The position numbers and the translations under genes were made by a program. DNA of 64,000 nt from Georgenia satyanarayanai (GTDB lineage Bacteria > Actinomycetota > Actinomycetes > Actinomycetales > Actinomycetaceae). This document shows, in pieces, positions 39,016-46,710 of the stretch. The notes under the pieces are model-generated. The model made no database searches. It saw nothing but the letters and a program-made list of their open reading frames with translations, and was not told the DNA's origin. The stretch is taken from NCBI RefSeq assembly GCF_900116375.1, contig NZ_UETB01000001.1, positions 124,001-188,000 on the forward strand. Direction: 5' to 3'. The first letter of the stretch is position 1; every line of letters begins with the position of its first letter.

Positions 39016-42000
39016 TCAGCCTGCCGTGGGCCGGCGGATGCCCAGGGTGTCGGTGCCGTCACCGTTCCAGTCACCCACGTGCACCTCGTCGCCCAGGCGG
39101 CCGAAGGTCAGCACCGTGTCCGCCTCCCCGCCACGCAGGGAGTTGTTCACGTAGTACGTGCGACCCCGCTGGACGGCCAGGGTGTCGCTCCCGTTGCCGT
39201 CCCAGTCACCGGTCAGGGTGACGTCACCGGCCCGGCCGTAGGTGAACACCGTGTCCGCGTCCCCACCACGCAGGGAGTTCTTCACGTGGTACGTCGCGGC
39301 CCGGCGCACCGCGAAGGTGTCCGTCCCGTTGCCGTCCCAGTCACCCACGAGCACCATGTCGGCCTCCCGGCCGTAGTGGAACACCACGTCGGCGCCCCCA
39401 CCGGTCAGGGAGTTCTTCACGTGGTACTCGGCCCCGCGACGCACCGCGAAGGTGTCGGTGCCGTCCCCGTCCCAGTCACCCACGAGGATGACGTCGTCGG
39501 GCCGCCCGTAGGTGAGCACGACGTCCGCGTCCCCACCCTGCTGGGCGTTGGACACGTGGAACCGGTTCCCGCGCCGCACGGTGATGGTGTCCTGGCCGTC
39601 ACCGTCCCAGTCACCGATGAGCACCTCATCGACCCAGCGGCCGTACATGAAGTGCACGTCCGTGGACCCGGCCCAGCTGTTGGACAGGTGGAACTCGGCG
39701 GTCCGACGGTCGGTCGGCTCCTCGGGCTCGTCCGGTCCGGGGGAGACGACCACCACGGCGCTGTCCGCCGAGGCCTCGAGGATGTCGAAACCGGCGAACT
39801 CGGCCGTGACGGTGTGCTCGCCCGGGGCGAGGTCGGCCGGCAGGGTCGCCGTGGCGACGCCGTCCTCGAGGAGGACCGTCTCGGACCACGAGCCGGCGCT
39901 GAAGGTCACCTCGCCCCCGGTCTCGAAGGTGTCCTCCGCCGTGACGGTGGCGGTGACCGAGGCGGTCTCACCCTCCTGGACCTCCGCGTCGACGGTGAGC
40001 TCCGTCGTCGTCGACACGTCCTCGTTCTCGATGCCGCGGATGTCGTTCCACTCCCGGAGCGTGATCGGGATGACGGTGCCGTGACGGGGGCGCGGGACGC
40101 CGGCGTTGGTCATGGTGATCTGCTCGGCGTCCCAGGTCTCGGCCTCGATGTCCTCGCTGCACGCCGCCTGGTAGCCGCCGCCGTTGGTGTAGCGGTCACC
40201 CCACAGGTAGAACTCGCCGGGGCACGCCGTGTCACCGGGGTTCGCCCGGAAGAGGACCGGGCCCTCGTAGCCCTGGTTGGGGTCCCACGTGGTGCGGCCC
40301 AGGGCGGGGGCGAGCAGCTCCCAGTTGTCGAGGTCGCTGTCGAGGAAGTCGGTGTGCTTCTCGGAGAAGAGGTCGGACCCGGCGTTGCCCGCCTCGTCCT
40401 TCGTCACGCGGTAGTAGTAGTCGCCCACCTTGAGCGCCGTGGTGTCGATCGAGGACCGCGGGAAGGGGTCCTGCCACACCTGGGGCTCGGAGAAGGTCTG
40501 GAAGTCGCGCGTGATGTTGTACCACATCTGGGCGTTGCCCTGGCCGGTGCGGTTGACCGGGTCGTCCCACAGCGACTGGGCCCAGAACACGGCGTAGGCG
40601 CCGATCTCCTCCACCCACAGCGACTCCGGCGCGAAGGCGTTGCCGGCCTGGTCCGGAGCGACCTGGACGTGCCGCTGCGGCGTCCAGTTGACGAGGTCGT
40701 TGGACTCGAAGACCTCGATGTTCTGGGTGTCGTTGATGTTGTACCCGCCCTGGTCGTACCAGTTGAGGTCGGTGGCGATCATGTAGAAGGTGTCGCCGTC
40801 GGGGGAGCGGACGATGTGCGGGTCGCGCAGACCCTGGTCGCCCAGCTGGGAGATGAGCGAGGGCTGCCCGCCGGTGAGGCCGGTCCAGTCGAGGGCGGTG
40901 TTGCCGTTCGACGTCGCGAACATGATCTGCTCGCCGTCGGCGATGTTCTCGCCCTTGAAGTAGCCGAGGAAGTAGCGCTCGTACTCCTCGACGCGGGGCA
41001 TGGCCCTGACGGTGGCCTCGAAGGTCTTCGTCTCCGACGCCTCGCCCTTGGTGGCGGTCGCGGTGAGAGTGACGTCCGCGTCCGGGTGGCCGTAGGCCGG
41101 GCGGGTCACCTCACCGGTCGGGCTCACCAGCTCGGGTGCGCTGGACTCCCACGTGATGGTCGAGCCGAACTCGCCCTCCGCGGGCAGGGTGATGTTCCCG
41201 CGGACGTCGTCGGTGGCGTAGAGCTCGAGGTCGTAGATGTCCCGCTCGACGGCCGGGCCGTCCTGGAACTCCGCCTTGACGGTGACCTCGATGTCCCGGG
41301 TGACGACCTCGCTGCCCTTGCTGACGGTCGCCGTCAGCGTCGCCGTGGCGTCGGGCTCCCCGACGGCGGGCCGGGTGATGCGGCCGATGACGTCGACCTT
41401 CGGGGCGCTCGCCGGCGGGGTGACGACCTCGACGACGGACGGGTCGGAGGACTCCCAGGTGATCGTGGAGCCGGCCACCGTGCCGAACTTGGGCAGCGTG
41501 ATGTCACCGACGATGGCCTCGACGAGGCCGAGGTCGATCGCGGCGGCGTCCTCCTGGGCGCCGGTGGCGACCGTCTCGGCGGCGAGCGCGGCCGCGTCGT
41601 CGGCGTCCACGGCGCGGTCGTAGACGCGGAAGTCCTTGAGGGTCCCGCGGAAGGAGTAGTCGCCGGACGTCTGGGAGCGACCCAGGAAGTTGCAGTTCGT
41701 GCCCGCCTCGGCGTTGACGGACGGGGGCGTGGTGAGGTCGGTTGCCTGGCTCTGCTGGGTGCCGTCGACGTACACCGTGCCGGTCCAGGTGGTGCCGTCC
41801 TCGTTGAGGGACTGGGTGTAGGTGACGTGCTTCCAGGCCCCCTCGCGCAGGCGGTCCTGGTACAGCGGCTGGTCCCCGACGACGATGCGGAACCGGGCAC
41901 CGGGCCGCGCCGAGGTGTTCGAGGCGAAGATGGAGCCCTCGAGCCCCGTGTCGGCGTCGCAGGAGCCGGCCTTGCTGGCCAGGCTCCAGATCTGGTGGTG

Positions 42001-42393
42001 GCCGACGTTCGCAGGGTCGACCCACACGTCGTAGTCGACGGTGAGCTCCGTCATGCCCGCGGTGAGGTCGTCCGGCAGCTCGACGTACGCACCCTCGAGG
42101 GCGGTCTCGTAGGAGTCGGGGTTGAGCCGCACCCCGTCGCCGGTCAGCGTGGCCCTGTCCGGGTTGACGAGCGTGGCCGGCGTCCCGGCGGAGCCGGAGT
42201 TCGCCAGCACGGTCCCGCTCGTCTCGTCGAGCTCGAAGTGGTGGACCAGCCCCTCGAGGTCCGGCTCCGCGTCCGGGGAGACGGAGCCCGCAGCTGCCGC
42301 GGTGCCGAGCCCGCCGATCCCCACGGTGAGGACGGTGATGGCGCCGAGCAGCCGCGTGCGCCGCTGTCTCGTCGCGGTCAGGTCAGGTGTCAT
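39016..42393 (-). CDS. Secreted GH43 glycosidase with LamG, Ig-like and FG-GAP-like repeats
   Basis: 1125 residues. Signal peptide (1-36, LGTAAAAGS); LamG/concanavalin-like domain (about 45-270); two Ig-like units sharing STITWESSDPSVVEV and STITWESSAPELVS (about 290-480); GH43 catalytic domain (about 485-790) with base Asp in LRDPHIVRSPDG, modulator Asp region in FYMIATDLNWY and acid Glu in GYEGPVLFRANPG; an Ig-like spacer; five 45-residue repeats with GDWDGDGTDT calcium-type loops to the C-terminus. GH43 enzymes are arabinofuranosidases, arabinanases or xylosidases; the neighbouring xylanase favours arabinoxylan. No LPxTG, so probably released. GGAG lies 11 nt before ATG 42393. Confidence 0.9.
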   Translation of the reverse strand: MTPDLTATRQRRTRLLGAITVLTVGIGGLGTAAAAGSVSPDAEPDLEGLVHHFELDETSGTVLANSGSAGTPATLVNPDRATLTGDGVRLNPDSYETALEGAYVELPDDLTAGMTELTVDYDVWVDPANVGHHQIWSLASKAGSCDADTGLEGSIFASNTSARPGARFRIVVGDQPLYQDRLREGAWKHVTYTQSLNEDGTTWTGTVYVDGTQQSQATDLTTPPSVNAEAGTNCNFLGRSQTSGDYSFRGTLKDFRVYDRAVDADDAAALAAETVATGAQEDAAAIDLGLVEAIVGDITLPKFGTVAGSTITWESSDPSVVEVVTPPASAPKVDVIGRITRPAVGEPDATATLTATVSKGSEVVTRDIEVTVKAEFQDGPAVERDIYDLELYATDDVRGNITLPAEGEFGSTITWESSAPELVSPTGEVTRPAYGHPDADVTLTATATKGEASETKTFEATVRAMPRVEEYERYFLGYFKGENIADGEQIMFATSNGNTALDWTGLTGGQPSLISQLGDQGLRDPHIVRSPDGDTFYMIATDLNWYDQGGYNINDTQNIEVFESNDLVNWTPQRHVQVAPDQAGNAFAPESLWVEEIGAYAVFWAQSLWDDPVNRTGQGNAQMWYNITRDFQTFSEPQVWQDPFPRSSIDTTALKVGDYYYRVTKDEAGNAGSDLFSEKHTDFLDSDLDNWELLAPALGRTTWDPNQGYEGPVLFRANPGDTACPGEFYLWGDRYTNGGGYQAACSEDIEAETWDAEQITMTNAGVPRPRHGTVIPITLREWNDIRGIENEDVSTTTELTVDAEVQEGETASVTATVTAEDTFETGGEVTFSAGSWSETVLLEDGVATATLPADLAPGEHTVTAEFAGFDILEASADSAVVVVSPGPDEPEEPTDRRTAEFHLSNSWAGSTDVHFMYGRWVDEVLIGDWDGDGQDTITVRRGNRFHVSNAQQGGDADVVLTYGRPDDVILVGDWDGDGTDTFAVRRGAEYHVKNSLTGGGADVVFHYGREADMVLVGDWDGNGTDTFAVRRAATYHVKNSLRGGDADTVFTYGRAGDVTLTGDWDGNGSDTLAVQRGRTYYVNNSLRGGEADTVLTFGRLGDEVHVGDWNGDGTDTLGIRRPTAG
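39019..39693 (-). repeat. Five tandem 135-bp coding repeats
   Basis: Each unit encodes 45 residues of the form (H/Y)V-N-S-L-x-GG-x-AD-x-V-x-x-YGR...GDWDGDGTDT-x-x-V-R-R. Units 2-5 are the most alike. FG-GAP/VCBS-like units usually form a beta-propeller, with the DxDGDG loops binding calcium. Confidence 0.85.
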
Positions 42394-42515
42394 GGATCGC
42401 GTACTCCTTCGTCGTGATCGGGCCTGCGAGCGCGCGCGGCTGGAGGGTCCCCCGACCACGGCGCGCGGCCGGTCCGCGTCGGCGTGGACCGGTGGAAATG
42501 CGCCTGAGCATTGGA

Positions 42516-42529
42516 TGTTGCCGCTCACA
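42516..42529. promoter_or_regulatory. LacI-type operator upstream of the GH43 gene
   Basis: TGTTGCCGCTCACA matches 11 of 14 positions of TGTGAGCGCTCACA, with a perfect CGCTCACA half site. It lies about 120 bp upstream of the GH43 start and 117 bp upstream of the divergent flavoprotein start. It shares the TGTG-N6-CACA geometry of the GH42 operators. Confidence 0.45.
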
Positions 42530-42645
42530 TCAACGGGTGTCAAGGGTCCTCTCACGGAGGGGACGCCGACGTCGCCCCGGCGGACCGGTGGCCCGCTAGC
42601 CTGGCCCGCGACGGTGAGGGAGCCGTCGCGAGGAGGGGAGATCGC

Positions 42646-44295
42646 ATGGACGCGGACGTCATCGTCGTCGGGGCGGGACTGGCCGGGCTCGTCGCCACGG
42701 CCGAGCTCGCAGGTGCCGGACGCCGGGTGGTGCTCGTGGACCAGGAGCCGCTGCAGAACCTCGGCGGGCAGGCGTACTGGTCCTTCGGCGGGCTGTTCCT
42801 CGTCGACTCTCCCGAGCAGCGGCGCATGGGCGTGCGCGACGACGTCAAGCTCGCCTGGCAGGACTGGCAGGGCACCGCCGGTTTCGACCGGCCGCGCGAG
42901 GACCGCTGGCCCGAGCGCTGGGCACGCGCCTACGTCGACTTCGCCGCGGGGGAGAAGCGCGCCTGGCTGCACTCCCTGGGCGTGCGCTTCTTCCCGGTCG
43001 TCGGCTGGGCCGAGCGCGGCGGGACCCTGGCGACCGGCCCGGGGAACTCCGTGCCGCGCTTCCACATCGTGTGGGGGACCGGACCCGGGCTCGTCGCCCC
43101 CTTCGCGCGGCAGGTGCGCGCCGCCGTCGACGACAAGCTCGTGCGCCTGGCGCCGCGCCACCGCGTCACCCGGCTCACCACGACCGGCGGCGTGGTCGAC
43201 GGCGTGGCCGGTCAGGTTCTGGCGCCCGACGCCGCCCCGCGCGGTGAGGCGACCTCCCGCGCCGTCGTCGGGGACTTCACGCTGCGGGCGCAGGCCGTCG
43301 TCGTCGCCTCGGGCGGGATCGGCGGGAACCACGAGCTCGTGCGCCGCTGGTGGCCGCAGTCCCTCGGAGCACCGCCGCAGCGGATGCTCACCGGCGTGCC
43401 CGCCTACGTCGACGGCTCGATGCTCGAGGTCGCGGCCGACGCGGGCGCGAGCCTCGTCAACCGCGACCGCATGTGGCACTACACCGAGGGCATCGAGAAC
43501 TACGCGCCCGTGTGGCCCGGGCACGGCATCCGCATCCTGCCCGGCCCGTCGTCGCTGTGGCTCGACGGCGCCGGCCGCCGGCTGCCCGCCCCGCTCTTCC
43601 CGGGCTTCGACACCCTCGCCACCCTGCGCCACCTGCGCGCCACCGGCTACGACCACAGCTGGTTCGTCCTCACCCAGCGGATCATCGAGAAGGAGCTCGC
43701 CCTCTCGGGCAGCGAGCAGAACCCCGACCTCACCGGGAAGGACCTGCGCCGGCTCGCCGAGCGGCTGCGCCCCGGCGCACCCGGCCCGGTGGCCGAGTTC
43801 ATGCGGCGAGGGGCGGACTTCGTCGTCGCGGACACGCTCGAGGAGCTCGTCGCGCGGATGAACCGGGTGACGCCGGAGGCGCCCCTCGAGCTCGACGTCG
43901 TCGCCCGGGAGGTCCACGCGCGCGACCGGGAGATGGCCAACGAGTTCACCAAGGACGCCCAGGTGACGGCGCTGCGCCAGGCCCGCACCTACCGCGGGGA
44001 CCGGCTCATCCGCGTCGCCCCGCCCCACCGTCTCCTCGACCCCGCGGCCGGGCCGCTCGTCGCGGTCAAGCTCCACGTCCTCACCCGCAAGTCCCTCGGC
44101 GGCATCGAGACCGACCTCGACGGCCGGGTCCTCAGCGCCGACGGAACCGCGCTTCCCGGCCTCTTCGCTGCCGGTGAGGCGGCGGGCTTCGGCGGAGGAG
44201 GGGTGCACGGCTACCGCTCGCTCGAGGGCACCTTCCTCGGCGGCTGCCTCTTCTCCGGCCGCCAGGCCGGGAGGGGCGCCGTCGCGGCCACGTAG
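42646..44295 (+). CDS. FAD-binding dehydrogenase (KstD/fumarate-reductase-like)
   Basis: 549 residues. N-terminal dinucleotide fold [20 protein letters not shown] followed by the second FAD contact [22 protein letters not shown]-terminal FAD-binding end [34 protein letters not shown]. Middle capping domain contains the [11 protein letters not shown] and [12 protein letters not shown] stretches characteristic of this putative FAD-binding dehydrogenase group, related to flavocytochrome c and 3-ketosteroid dehydrogenase. Substrate unknown. No signal peptide. AGGAGGGGAG precedes ATG 42646. Divergent from GH43; ends at a hairpin. Confidence 0.87.
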
Positions 44296-44307
44296 CCCAA
44301 CCTCACC

Positions 44308-44338
44308 GGCGAGCCGGAGCCACCCGCGCCGGCTCGCC
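44308..44338 (+). terminator. Terminator after the flavoprotein gene
   Basis: GGCGAGCCGG (44308-44317) pairs with CCGGCTCGCC (44329-44338). Confidence 0.65.
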
Positions 44339-44354
44339 GTCGTCGGCGCCCGGT

Positions 44355-44401
44355 CATCGTGTGGGGTTCGTGCTCTCCTGGAACCCGAACCCCACACGAT
44401 G
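44355..44401. repeat. Long palindrome between flavoprotein gene and def
   Basis: CATCGTGTGGGGTTCG (44355-44370) pairs perfectly with CGAACCCCACACGATG (44386-44401) around a 15-nt loop. It follows a complete terminator and lies 60 bp before def, so it is not needed to end the upstream gene. It resembles the other long palindromes in the window in architecture but not in sequence. Confidence 0.7.
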
Positions 44402-44461
44402 GCCGAGGGGCACACAGCGCGAGAGCGTGATCCCGAGCACTGCGTGAGCCGTGGGAAACTG

Positions 44462-44956
44462 ATGCCCATGGCTATGCGAGACATCCGCGTCGTGGGTGAC
44501 CCCGTCCTGCGCACCCCGTGCGAACCGGTCACGGACATCGACGAGCGCGTCAAGGCCCTCGTCGAGGACCTCCTCGAGACGGTCGACCACGAGGGGCGGG
44601 CAGGACTGGCCGCCAACCAGATCGGTGTCAGCCTGCGCGCGTTCTCGTGGAACATCGACGACGAGATCGGCTACGTCCTCAACCCGCGCCTCGTCGAGGT
44701 CTCCGAGGAGGAGTACCAGGACGGCGACGAGGGCTGCCTGTCCGTGCCGGGGCTGTGGTTCCCCACCGAGCGCGCCTGGTACGCCCGCGTCGAGGGCACC
44801 GACCTGGACGGCAAGAAGGTCGTCGTCGAGGGGGAGGAGCTCATGGCCCGCTGCCTCCAGCACGAGTGCGACCACCTCGACGGCATGCTCTACATCGACC
44901 GCCTCGAGCGTGCCCAGCGCAAGAAGGCGATGCGCGCGATCCGCGAGATGCTCTGA
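44462..44956 (+). CDS. def: Peptide deformylase
   Basis: 164 residues; removes the N-formyl group from nascent proteins with a metal-dependent active site. All three motifs are present: motif 1 [11 protein letters not shown], motif 2 EGCLSVPGL with the metal-ligand Cys, motif 3 [10 protein letters not shown] with two His ligands and the catalytic Glu. Three closely spaced in-frame ATGs exist (44462, 44468, 44474); I chose the first because GGGA lies 6 nt upstream, giving [16 protein letters not shown]. Uncertainty of a few residues only. Stands alone between a long palindrome and the symporter leader. Confidence 0.95.
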
Positions 44957-44989: not shown

Positions 44990-45032
44990 AAGCGGCTGGT
45001 CCGGCCCTCGGACCTCACCTTGGGGAGGGTGT

Positions 45033-45113
45033 GTGCTCAACCGCTGGAACCTCACCGCGCGCTACGACCGCGACCTCGGTCGTCAGGCCAGCGCGCTGTG
45101 TTGTCGTCCCTGA
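45033..45113 (+). CDS. Cysteine-codon leader peptide (26 residues)
   Basis: GTG 45033 is preceded by GGGGAGGG (strong SD at 45022-45029). The peptide begins VLNRWNLTARYDRDLGRQ and ends SALCCRP followed by TGA; the two adjacent Cys codons (TGT TGT) come just before the stop. Tandem Cys codons in short upstream frames are known in Actinobacteria as cysteine sensors that regulate sulfur-assimilation genes. The next gene, 160 bp downstream, is a DAACS-family symporter, the family that includes cystine importers. Low Cys-tRNA would stall the ribosome and change folding of the leader. Confidence 0.7.
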   Translation: MLNRWNLTARYDRDLGRQASALCCRP

Positions 45114-45273
45114 GCACCCGCGGGACCTGAGCCCCGGACGCCCCCGGCAACGACGCCGACCCTGAACCACCTCGCCGACCCGTGTCGGCACGCGTCCGAG
45201 TACCCGCGCCGACGCACGCGTCGTTCGCGTGCGCCGCCACCCTTGTCACCTTCGCGTACCCGGAAAGGCAGCC
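45114..45273 (+). promoter_or_regulatory. Leader region between Cys peptide and symporter
   Basis: 160 bp with several overlapping inverted repeats, including CGCACGCG-tcgtt-CGCGTGCG about 45-60 bp before the symporter start. It is the expected place for a structure that responds to ribosome position. GGAAAGG precedes ATG 45274. Confidence 0.4.
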
Positions 45274-46710
45274 ATGTCCACGTCCACTGCACCCACCCGA
45301 CGGCGTCTGCGGGCCCCGTCCTTCACCGTCCAGATCCTCGCCGCCCTCGTCCTGGGCGTGCTGCTGGGCTGGTGGGCCCTCGCCATCGGGGAGGGCCCCA
45401 ACGAGGAGCCCAACGGCCTCACCGTCGCGCTCAGCACCATCGGCTCGACCTTCGTCAGCCTGCTGCGCGCCACCGTGCCGCCGCTCGTCTTCACCGCGAT
45501 CGTCGCCTCGATCGCCAACCTGCGCGGTGTGGCCAACGCGGCCCGCCTCGCCGGCCAGACGCTCCTGTGGTTCGCCATCACCGCGGCGGCCTCCGTGGTC
45601 ATCGGCATCGGCCTGGGCCTGCTCATGCAGCCGGGCATCAACACCTCCGTCGGTGCCGACGCCGCGAGCGACCCGGGGCGCTCCGGCAGCTGGCTCGACT
45701 TCCTCAGCGGACTCGTGCCGGTGAACTTCCTCGGGCTCGAGACCTCCGCCTCGCTCCAGACGAGCGAGGCCGGTGACATCACCGGCGTCGGCAGCTCGCT
45801 GAGCTTCAACGTCCTGCAGATCCTCGTCATGGCCCTGGTCGTCGGCATCGCCGCGCTCAAGGTGGGGGACAAGGCCGAGCCGTTCCTCTCGGTCAACCGC
45901 TCGCTGCTCGCCATCATCCAGAAGGTGCTGTGGTGGATCATCCGCCTCGCGCCGCTCGGCACCCTGGGCCTCATCGGCCGCGCGATCGCCACCTACGGCT
46001 GGGACGCCCTCGCGCCGCTCGGCACCTTCGCCGGCGCCGTCTACATCGGTCTCGCGCTCGTCCTCCTCGTCGTCTACCCGATCGTCCTGCGGACCAACGG
46101 GCTCGGCGTCATGCGCTTCTTCCGTGGCGCGTGGCCGGCGATCCAGCTGGCCTTCGTCTCCCGCTCCTCGATCGGCACGCTGCCGCTGACCCAGCGGGTG
46201 ACCGAGCGCAACCTCGGTGTCCCGCCGGCCTACGCGTCCTTCGCCGTGCCGCTGGGTGCGACGACCAAGATGGACGGCTGCGCCTCGATCTACCCGGCCC
46301 TCGCCGCGATCTTCGTCGCCCAGTTCTTCGGCCTGGAGCTCGCGGTCACCGACTACCTGCTCATCGCGTTCGTGTCCGTCGTCGGCTCCGCGGCGACGGC
46401 GGGGCTCACCGGAGCGCTCGTCATGCTCACCCTCACGCTGTCCACCCTGGGTCTGCCGCTCGAGGGTGTGGGCCTCCTCCTCGCCATCGACCCGATCCTC
46501 GACATGGGCCGTACGGCGACGAACGTCGCCGGCCAGGCGCTCGTGCCGACCGTCGTCGCCAAGCGCGAGGGGATCCTCGACGTCGAGCGGTACAACTCCG
46601 CCAACGCCGAGAACCTCTTCTCGGACGAGGACGAGGAGCGTGCCGCCGAGGCGCCCGAGCAGGTGAGCGGGCGGCCCGCGGCCGCCGAGCCGCAGCCGGC
46701 ACGCGCCTGA
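45274..46710 (+). CDS. DAACS-family dicarboxylate/amino acid:cation symporter, probable cystine importer
   Basis: 478 residues, eight membrane spans plus two re-entrant loops. N-terminal span FTVQILAALVLGVLLGWWAL; serine-rich hairpin 1 FVSRSSIGTLPLTQRV; PLGATTKMDGCASIYP with the conserved substrate-site motif (N replaced by K in NMDG); hairpin 2 region GLTGALVMLTLTL; DPILDMGRTATNVAGQ with the Na+/substrate-binding Asp-Arg-Asn triad. The Cys-codon leader peptide upstream suggests cystine transport, as for TcyP of Bacillus, rather than glutamate. The C-terminus is acidic then Pro/Ala-rich. ATG 45274 with GGAAAGG upstream. Confidence 0.88.
   Translation: MSTSTAPTRRRLRAPSFTVQILAALVLGVLLGWWALAIGEGPNEEPNGLTVALSTIGSTFVSLLRATVPPLVFTAIVASIANLRGVANAARLAGQTLLWFAITAAASVVIGIGLGLLMQPGINTSVGADAASDPGRSGSWLDFLSGLVPVNFLGLETSASLQTSEAGDITGVGSSLSFNVLQILVMALVVGIAALKVGDKAEPFLSVNRSLLAIIQKVLWWIIRLAPLGTLGLIGRAIATYGWDALAPLGTFAGAVYIGLALVLLVVYPIVLRTNGLGVMRFFRGAWPAIQLAFVSRSSIGTLPLTQRVTERNLGVPPAYASFAVPLGATTKMDGCASIYPALAAIFVAQFFGLELAVTDYLLIAFVSVVGSAATAGLTGALVMLTLTLSTLGLPLEGVGLLLAIDPILDMGRTATNVAGQALVPTVVAKREGILDVERYNSANAENLFSDEDEERAAEAPEQVSGRPAAAEPQPARA

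Follow-up and report, generated by a model that had tools for sequence, protein, structure and literature searches.

A carrier gene of the sodium:dicarboxylate symporter (DAACS) family in Georgenia satyanarayanai is preceded by a short open frame with two adjacent cysteine codons near its end. This raises two questions: whether the frame encodes a leader peptide that places the carrier under the control of cysteine, and what the carrier imports. The frame and the carrier gene lie in the window, that is, the whole stretch of 64,000 nucleotides that was analysed. The frame starting at 45033 is very probably a translated, cysteine-responsive leader peptide that controls the symporter as part of a sulfur-supply response, as judged by sequence comparison. 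The leader, its conservation, its family and sulfur-gene company, the UGU rule and the C-rich spacer were all computed here. We favor this reading because the leader is conserved, keeps the company of sulfur genes and has kin in NCBIfam, because the codon at its cysteine register is UGU in 111 of 112 cases, and because the spacer is skewed and has no terminator.

The short frame at the symporter locus

The locus has the following features.

45022..45029, + strand: Shine-Dalgarno-like GGGGAGGG of the leader, read from the sequence
45033..45113, + strand: leader frame, GTG start at 45033, 26 codons and TGA, from the sequence and from upstream conservation across orthologues
45099..45101, + strand: TGT cysteine codon at the conserved register (+10 from the V of VDL, here R), from the codon count of leaders
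45102..45104, + strand: second TGT cysteine codon, found by sequence comparison in the genus and in part of its near kin
45111-45113, + strand: TGA stop of the leader, from the sequence
45114..45273, + strand: C-rich, G-poor spacer (0.46 C, 0.29 G), by base composition a candidate for Rho loading, with no terminator-like site
45262..45268, + strand: GGAAAGG, read from the sequence, likely the ribosome-binding site of the symporter gene
45274..46710, + strand: DAACS carrier, 478 aa (PF00375, E 6.2e-98)

The first-pass annotation had described a 26-residue frame with a strong Shine-Dalgarno sequence and an end reading SALCCRP and stop, with two TGT codons, and all of these are present; the full translation is VLNRWNLTARYDRDLGRQASALCCRP. 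Conservation of the Shine-Dalgarno sequence at orthologous loci was also seen, since GGAG is retained in all six aligned loci of the genus with no loss. The ATG of the symporter gene at 45274 lies 160 nt past the leader stop. A perfect 7-nt inverted repeat (GTGCTCA/TGAGCAC, 45033-45039 and 45111-45117) links the start and stop of the leader and is mostly retained in the genus. Among known RNA families, only four tRNAs reached gathering scores within the window. The minus strand has a very long open frame at 39016-44655; its listed start overlaps other genes, and by eye its later part resembles a repeat-containing secreted glycoside hydrolase.

We searched the genome (3.9 Mb) with a leader profile of 12 rows, the window peptide among them. 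The best match was the 45033 leader (E 2.8e-15); one further match was credible (E 0.0018), and three weaker rows look like chance. The window peptide fits the core LxxRxxVDLxRxxSxxC with its Cys at +10 near the stop, a fit that is not independent of a profile containing it. The D, L, R and Cys are in place and the V of VDL is replaced by R.

Conservation upstream of symporter orthologues

Our first search gave 24 orthologues at 63–100% identity, the window included, with relatives near 30%. In the oriented loci the leader occurs upstream of 14 of these 24, including L001-L009 and L017, which lacks the Cys. By profile search it was found upstream of 35 of 80 named orthologous loci, corresponding to 35 of the 63 that are actinobacterial, raw counts that are slightly inflated by records common to both collections (L002/L096, L003/L097, L011/L103, L019/L167). 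Carriers of the leader include Cellulomonas, Cellulosimicrobium, Actinotalea, Jiangella, Nocardioides, Nocardiopsis and Blastococcus. A Streptomyces-like genome, so assigned by inference, has it ahead of its own 60%-identical DAACS gene (L197). The profile found no leader at many actinobacterial orthologues, for example in Arthrobacter, at any of the 17 alphaproteobacterial orthologues checked or upstream of the six paralogues that were fetched. In the alphaproteobacterial set, Ensifer, Phyllobacterium and Sphingomonas have the same DAACS subfamily at 62–71% identity without the leader.

The DAACS leaders share the conserved core W.LT.R..VDL.R.AS..C. Cysteine number varies: the genus and its closest relatives have CC or more, and most other relatives have a single Cys. 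The pair that had been taken as the key is thus a local feature, and the conserved element is one Cys at a fixed register. The first-pass annotation had expected conserved Cys codons behind variable upstream residues. One Cys is conserved as expected, but the residues ahead of it are strongly conserved too, the opposite of what was predicted, and the Leu and Arg codons show synonymous change. Conservation of the leader lies at the level of the peptide. Four DAACS leaders keep the peptide core without Cys at the register, which is a stop (TGA) in L017, L125 and L126 and Trp (TGG) in L130.

A leader family that precedes sulfur genes

The same peptide, LxxRx(H/A)VDLxRxxSxxC, precedes genes for CysD, CysO-CysM, rhodanese, SsuE, SsuA, SfnG, cysteine dioxygenase and a sulfite/nitrite-reductase-like protein, and the family also includes poly-Cys leaders of the mycobacterial type. 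Profile matches were found elsewhere in 59 related genomes; there are 3 to 12 in each Streptomyces-like genome and others in presumed mycobacterial kin, both names being inferred. We scanned the downstream proteins at 28 family loci outside the symporter set. The best match was of a sulfur type at 16 of them, including sulfonate or taurine ABC parts and TauE/SafE besides CysD, SsuE, SsuA, SfnG, CysO-CysM and rhodanese; one further locus is the DAACS gene of L197. Matches above curated cut-offs were CysD, SsuE, SsuA, SfnG and cysKM, and in Pfam CDO_I, TauE and ThiS. For the sulfite/nitrite-reductase-like gene the best model was nitrite reductase, below its cut-off, so its substrate may be nitrite. 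At the other 11 loci the next gene is not clearly related to sulfur: alcohol dehydrogenase, peptide- or sugar-type binding proteins, 2OG oxygenases, isochorismatase, an FAD protein, flavin reductase and the protein of L068, which had no match yet resembles the cysteine dioxygenase of L071. The proposed kinship of a Cys leader before a DAACS carrier with actinobacterial sulfur leaders is borne out, in that the leader is conserved and its family precedes sulfur-assimilation genes. Outside the window, the genome carries one more leader of this type (MYRLHLTSRRHIDLARVHTMICRS; L065, G000 contig C24:253096-253158, minus strand), which precedes a zinc-type alcohol dehydrogenase gene and is also found in G007 (L066).

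NCBIfam already names this leader family (NF042934, NF042933, NF042936). The window peptide matched none of the NCBIfam families and is below the NF042934 cut-off of 27 bits. Related DAACS leaders exceed it (L007 36.1, L008 28.4, L102 37.5, L109 36.7, L122 30.9), and the DAACS leaders L005, L148, L197 and L120 are below it. NF042934 scored above its cut-off in 7 of the 59 related genomes, including the symporter leaders of G007, G026 and G051, and in none of 14 control genomes. By alignment, then, the window peptide appears as a relative at the same locus as NF042934 members that is too diverged to be a scored member. The symporter is a new target gene for an already known kind of actinobacterial leader. 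We counted against the cysteine-leader reading the NCBIfam-unmatched window peptide, the four DAACS leaders lacking Cys, the unclear targets at 11 of 28 loci and the leaderless orthologues.

The carrier and its likely substrate

The carrier belongs to the DAACS family (PF00375, 328.8 bits against a gathering cut-off of 27.9) and is the sole PF00375 gene found in the G. satyanarayanai genome. Its nearest named records are from Georgenia satyanarayanai and Oceanitalea stevensii, with 97% identical symporters, a comparison from which the window's own record was possibly left out. It had been proposed that the leader assigns cystine, and not glutamate, as the substrate. This does not follow, because the carrier is at a near-equal distance from the Escherichia coli carriers TcyP (29.98% identity), GltP (30.2%) and DctA (26.9%) and retains DMGR.

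Since the regulatory company of the leader is sulfur genes, a sulfur source is the expected substrate, most likely a sulfur amino acid such as cystine. We rank cystine first, at somewhat better than an even bet; this ranking comes from regulatory company and is not a result. A serious competitor, to which we give rather less than even weight, is that the switch responds to cysteine but the carrier moves glutamate/aspartate or a sulfonated amino acid (cysteate or sulfocysteine, for example). The equal distances and the retained DMGR fit this, as does a tree in which the carrier clade is not joined to TcyP, itself a very long branch elsewhere, and the leaders also precede sulfonate genes. Against it stand the sulfur-gene company and two local signatures, GCAxxYPA and PxxDMGRTAxNVxG, which, of the four E. 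coli carriers compared, only TcyP has in common with it. Neighbouring genes gave no clue to substrate in six regions around alphaproteobacterial and plasmid orthologues, two of them without gene annotation. We found no literature on a cystine symporter and sulfur limitation in Actinobacteria, a weak absence as subscription literature was mostly outside the search. These data place a carrier annotated merely as a dicarboxylate/amino-acid symporter in the sulfur response of many Actinobacteria and give it a testable substrate.

The spacer RNA and the output of the proposed switch

In the switch we propose, scarcity of charged tRNA-Cys would make the ribosome pause at the conserved UGU, a few codons before the stop, with VDLxR in the exit tunnel. 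The paused ribosome would cover the start of the C-rich spacer and block Rho, so that the symporter is made. With plentiful cysteine the ribosome would finish and leave, and the C-rich RNA would let transcription end before the symporter gene. A stalled ribosome that shields a Rho site was proposed for cys leaders by Seliverstov et al. (PMC1262725), in the part of that paper available.

The spacers are consistent with this. The C-over-G skew in the first 100 nt past the leader stop is 0.265 in 33 loci, all positive, compared with –0.006 upstream of the leaders and 0.026 in 26 leaderless actinobacterial orthologues. The control set excludes 13 of 39 initially ‘leaderless’ orthologues (mean 0.071 for the 39) in which the profile found a leader and whose own mean is 0.161. 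Downstream of 80 other leaders the skew over the first 60 nt is 0.273, again all positive, and the skew after symporter stops is 0.078 (76% positive). The register Cys is separated from the stop by 1–10 codons in the 33 DAACS leaders. No intrinsic terminator was found in the spacer, and TTTT occurs in the spacer of one of 36 loci; a classical trp-type attenuator with alternative hairpins and an intrinsic terminator was not found. A C-rich, G-poor spacer without a terminator fits Rho-dependent control. C-rich RNA is only suggestive of Rho, and we rate Rho as the agent at a little under an even chance.

Cysteine sensing of the same kind could instead act on translation, if the RNA hid the ribosome-binding site of the symporter gene until a ribosome pausing over the Cys codons opened it. 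We consider this possible, with the odds leaning against it. Mycobacterial poly-Cys leaders, which citing papers describe in the passages available as working by translation attenuation, favor it, and spacers over 33 leader loci have a mean fold z of –1.45, with 8 below –2. By contrast, the spacer in the window, described by the first-pass annotation as a 160-bp structured leader before a DAACS gene, has that length and position but folds no better than dinucleotide shuffles (z 0.38, –0.10 and –0.84 for three segments). Pairing is no stronger in the start region than elsewhere (unpaired 0.44 compared with 0.40), and the Cys end shows no excess of pairing with RNA further downstream (mean z 0.14 and –0.14), a candidate we rejected.

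A hairpin inside the leader was also rejected. RNAalifold gave no pairs with all 91 rows that were long enough (of 115), nor with 70 non-DAACS rows; 21 DAACS rows gave a weak hairpin (–1.2 kcal). A covariation scan of the leader found no run of paired columns.

A UGU codon at a fixed register

We collected 120 leaders, of which 115 were unique after removal of identical cores (34 DAACS and 81 other, with L197 among the other). Matches in long frames were left out as chance (L077, L083, L084, L182, L184), and where the downstream gene was beyond view the locus was left out and the leader kept (L074, L080). The leader set is also without L215, L226, L246, L252, L241 (frame ends early), L248, L192 and L200, and loci L066, L072, L180, L188, L191, L195 and L202 were judged by eye only.

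Cys is at +10 from the V of VDL in 112 of the 115 unique leaders; the other three have Gly (two) or, in L017, a stop. The +10 codon is TGT in 111 of 112 (33 DAACS, 78 other) and TGC once (L208). Elsewhere in these peptides Cys is encoded by TGC 94 times and by TGT 35 times (Fisher 9e-36, which is not a clean probability given the common descent of the leaders). TGT is most strongly preferred at +10, though not there alone: it also prevails at +11 (11 compared with 3) and +8 (4 compared with 1), and TGC at +9 (8 compared with 3), +6 (15 compared with 1) and +3 (30 compared with 5). The symporter genes of the 80 named loci have 68 TGC and 12 TGT codons. Nine DAACS leaders found later have TGT likewise, and the window leader has it at 45099-45101. 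The Ser codon at +7 is AGC in 85 of 97 leaders, compared with 0.20 of Ser in the symporter genes, so an RNA-level element is possible. One tRNA-Cys(GCA) gene was found in the genome among the 32 of 47 tRNA genes examined; this tRNA reads UGU by wobble.

We regard the position-specific UGU as the most interesting part of these results, and it may help explain the switch. A near-fixed synonymous codon over 112 leaders, when most other Cys codons are TGC, is a sharp clue to mechanism. Tentatively, and with more doubt than confidence in all of its steps together, we suggest that the family could be nascent-chain-assisted, codon-specific cysteine sensors instead of plain hungry-codon attenuators. 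VDLxRxx(S) would sit in the exit tunnel at a fixed distance from a UGU read in the A site by G-U wobble of tRNA-Cys(GCA), a single Cys would suffice for the stall, the C-rich Rho-loading stretch right past the stop would convert stalling into expression, and a dispersed sulfur regulon that includes the symporter would be run by this one device.

An arrest peptide triggered by something other than charged tRNA-Cys, perhaps a small sulfur metabolite within the tunnel, with the Cys codon as the stopping place only, seems improbable to us. VDLxR is conserved as much as the Cys, and the four DAACS leaders with a stop or Trp at the register retain the peptide, both of which favor this alternative; the near-invariant register Cys of the collection and the poly-Cys tracts of relatives argue against it. 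Lastly, many short frames are open in high-GC DNA, but we reject a chance frame, whose probability is negligible, because peptide, register and codon are conserved over many genera and none of 110 antisense control stretches reached at least 15 bits with the leader profile.

Comparison with known systems

The closest known entries are NF042934 (cis_reg_atten, ‘putative leader peptide’), NF042933 (Ms5788A family) and NF042936 (Ms4527A family), with which the cysteine leaders share the core LxxRxxVDLxR..C. NF042934 differs from the unmatched window peptide, which has RDL for VDL, and the model is a name only, with no target gene or codon rule.

The mycobacterial poly-Cys leaderless short ORFs of Canestrari et al. 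(2020), as described in citing papers, are similar in that they lie ahead of sulfur genes and have their Cys codons close to the stop. The window leader differs in its Shine-Dalgarno-led start, its one or two Cys, its secondary transporter target and the lack of any sign of a hidden ribosome-binding site. The mycobacterial leaders are reported as cysteine-responsive attenuators in what is available of the citing papers, and there was earlier speculation to this effect. The leader of L183, with six consecutive Cys, has the LTKRRAVDLCRVA core in common with Streptomyces-like leaders ahead of rhodanese.

The cys/cbs leaders of Seliverstov et al. (2005) are likewise actinobacterial, with Cys runs near the stop and no conserved terminator, and Rho was suggested, as it is for the window leader; the accessible portion names only cys operons and cbs as targets, and the word ‘transporter’ is absent from the text. 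The short leader uORFC-8-2 before cysS in Rhodobacterales (PMC8632094) likewise carries a tandem pair of Cys codons and, in the section available, differs in dominant UGC, a terminator stem downstream, phylum and gene. This motif was the sole relevant case among the matches listed for UGU-codon leaders, a weak absence, and the leader core strings occurred only in papers on viral epitopes or fusion peptides, judged by title. A Streptomyces lividans metL leader (PMC8079986), termed a methionine leader in the part of the paper available, carries three Cys close to its end and is possibly a Cys leader.

For the carrier, the comparison is with the TcyP/YdjN cystine symporter of E. coli and B. subtilis (PMC4383340, in the excerpt available), which has the DAACS fold, is sulfur-regulated and shares the two short signatures. 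It stands apart in its overall identity of about 30%, its long tree branch and its proposed control by CysB instead of a leader. E. coli YdjN is reported there as a cystine symporter that is proposed to belong to the Cys regulon, which gives sulfur control of a DAACS carrier as such a precedent.
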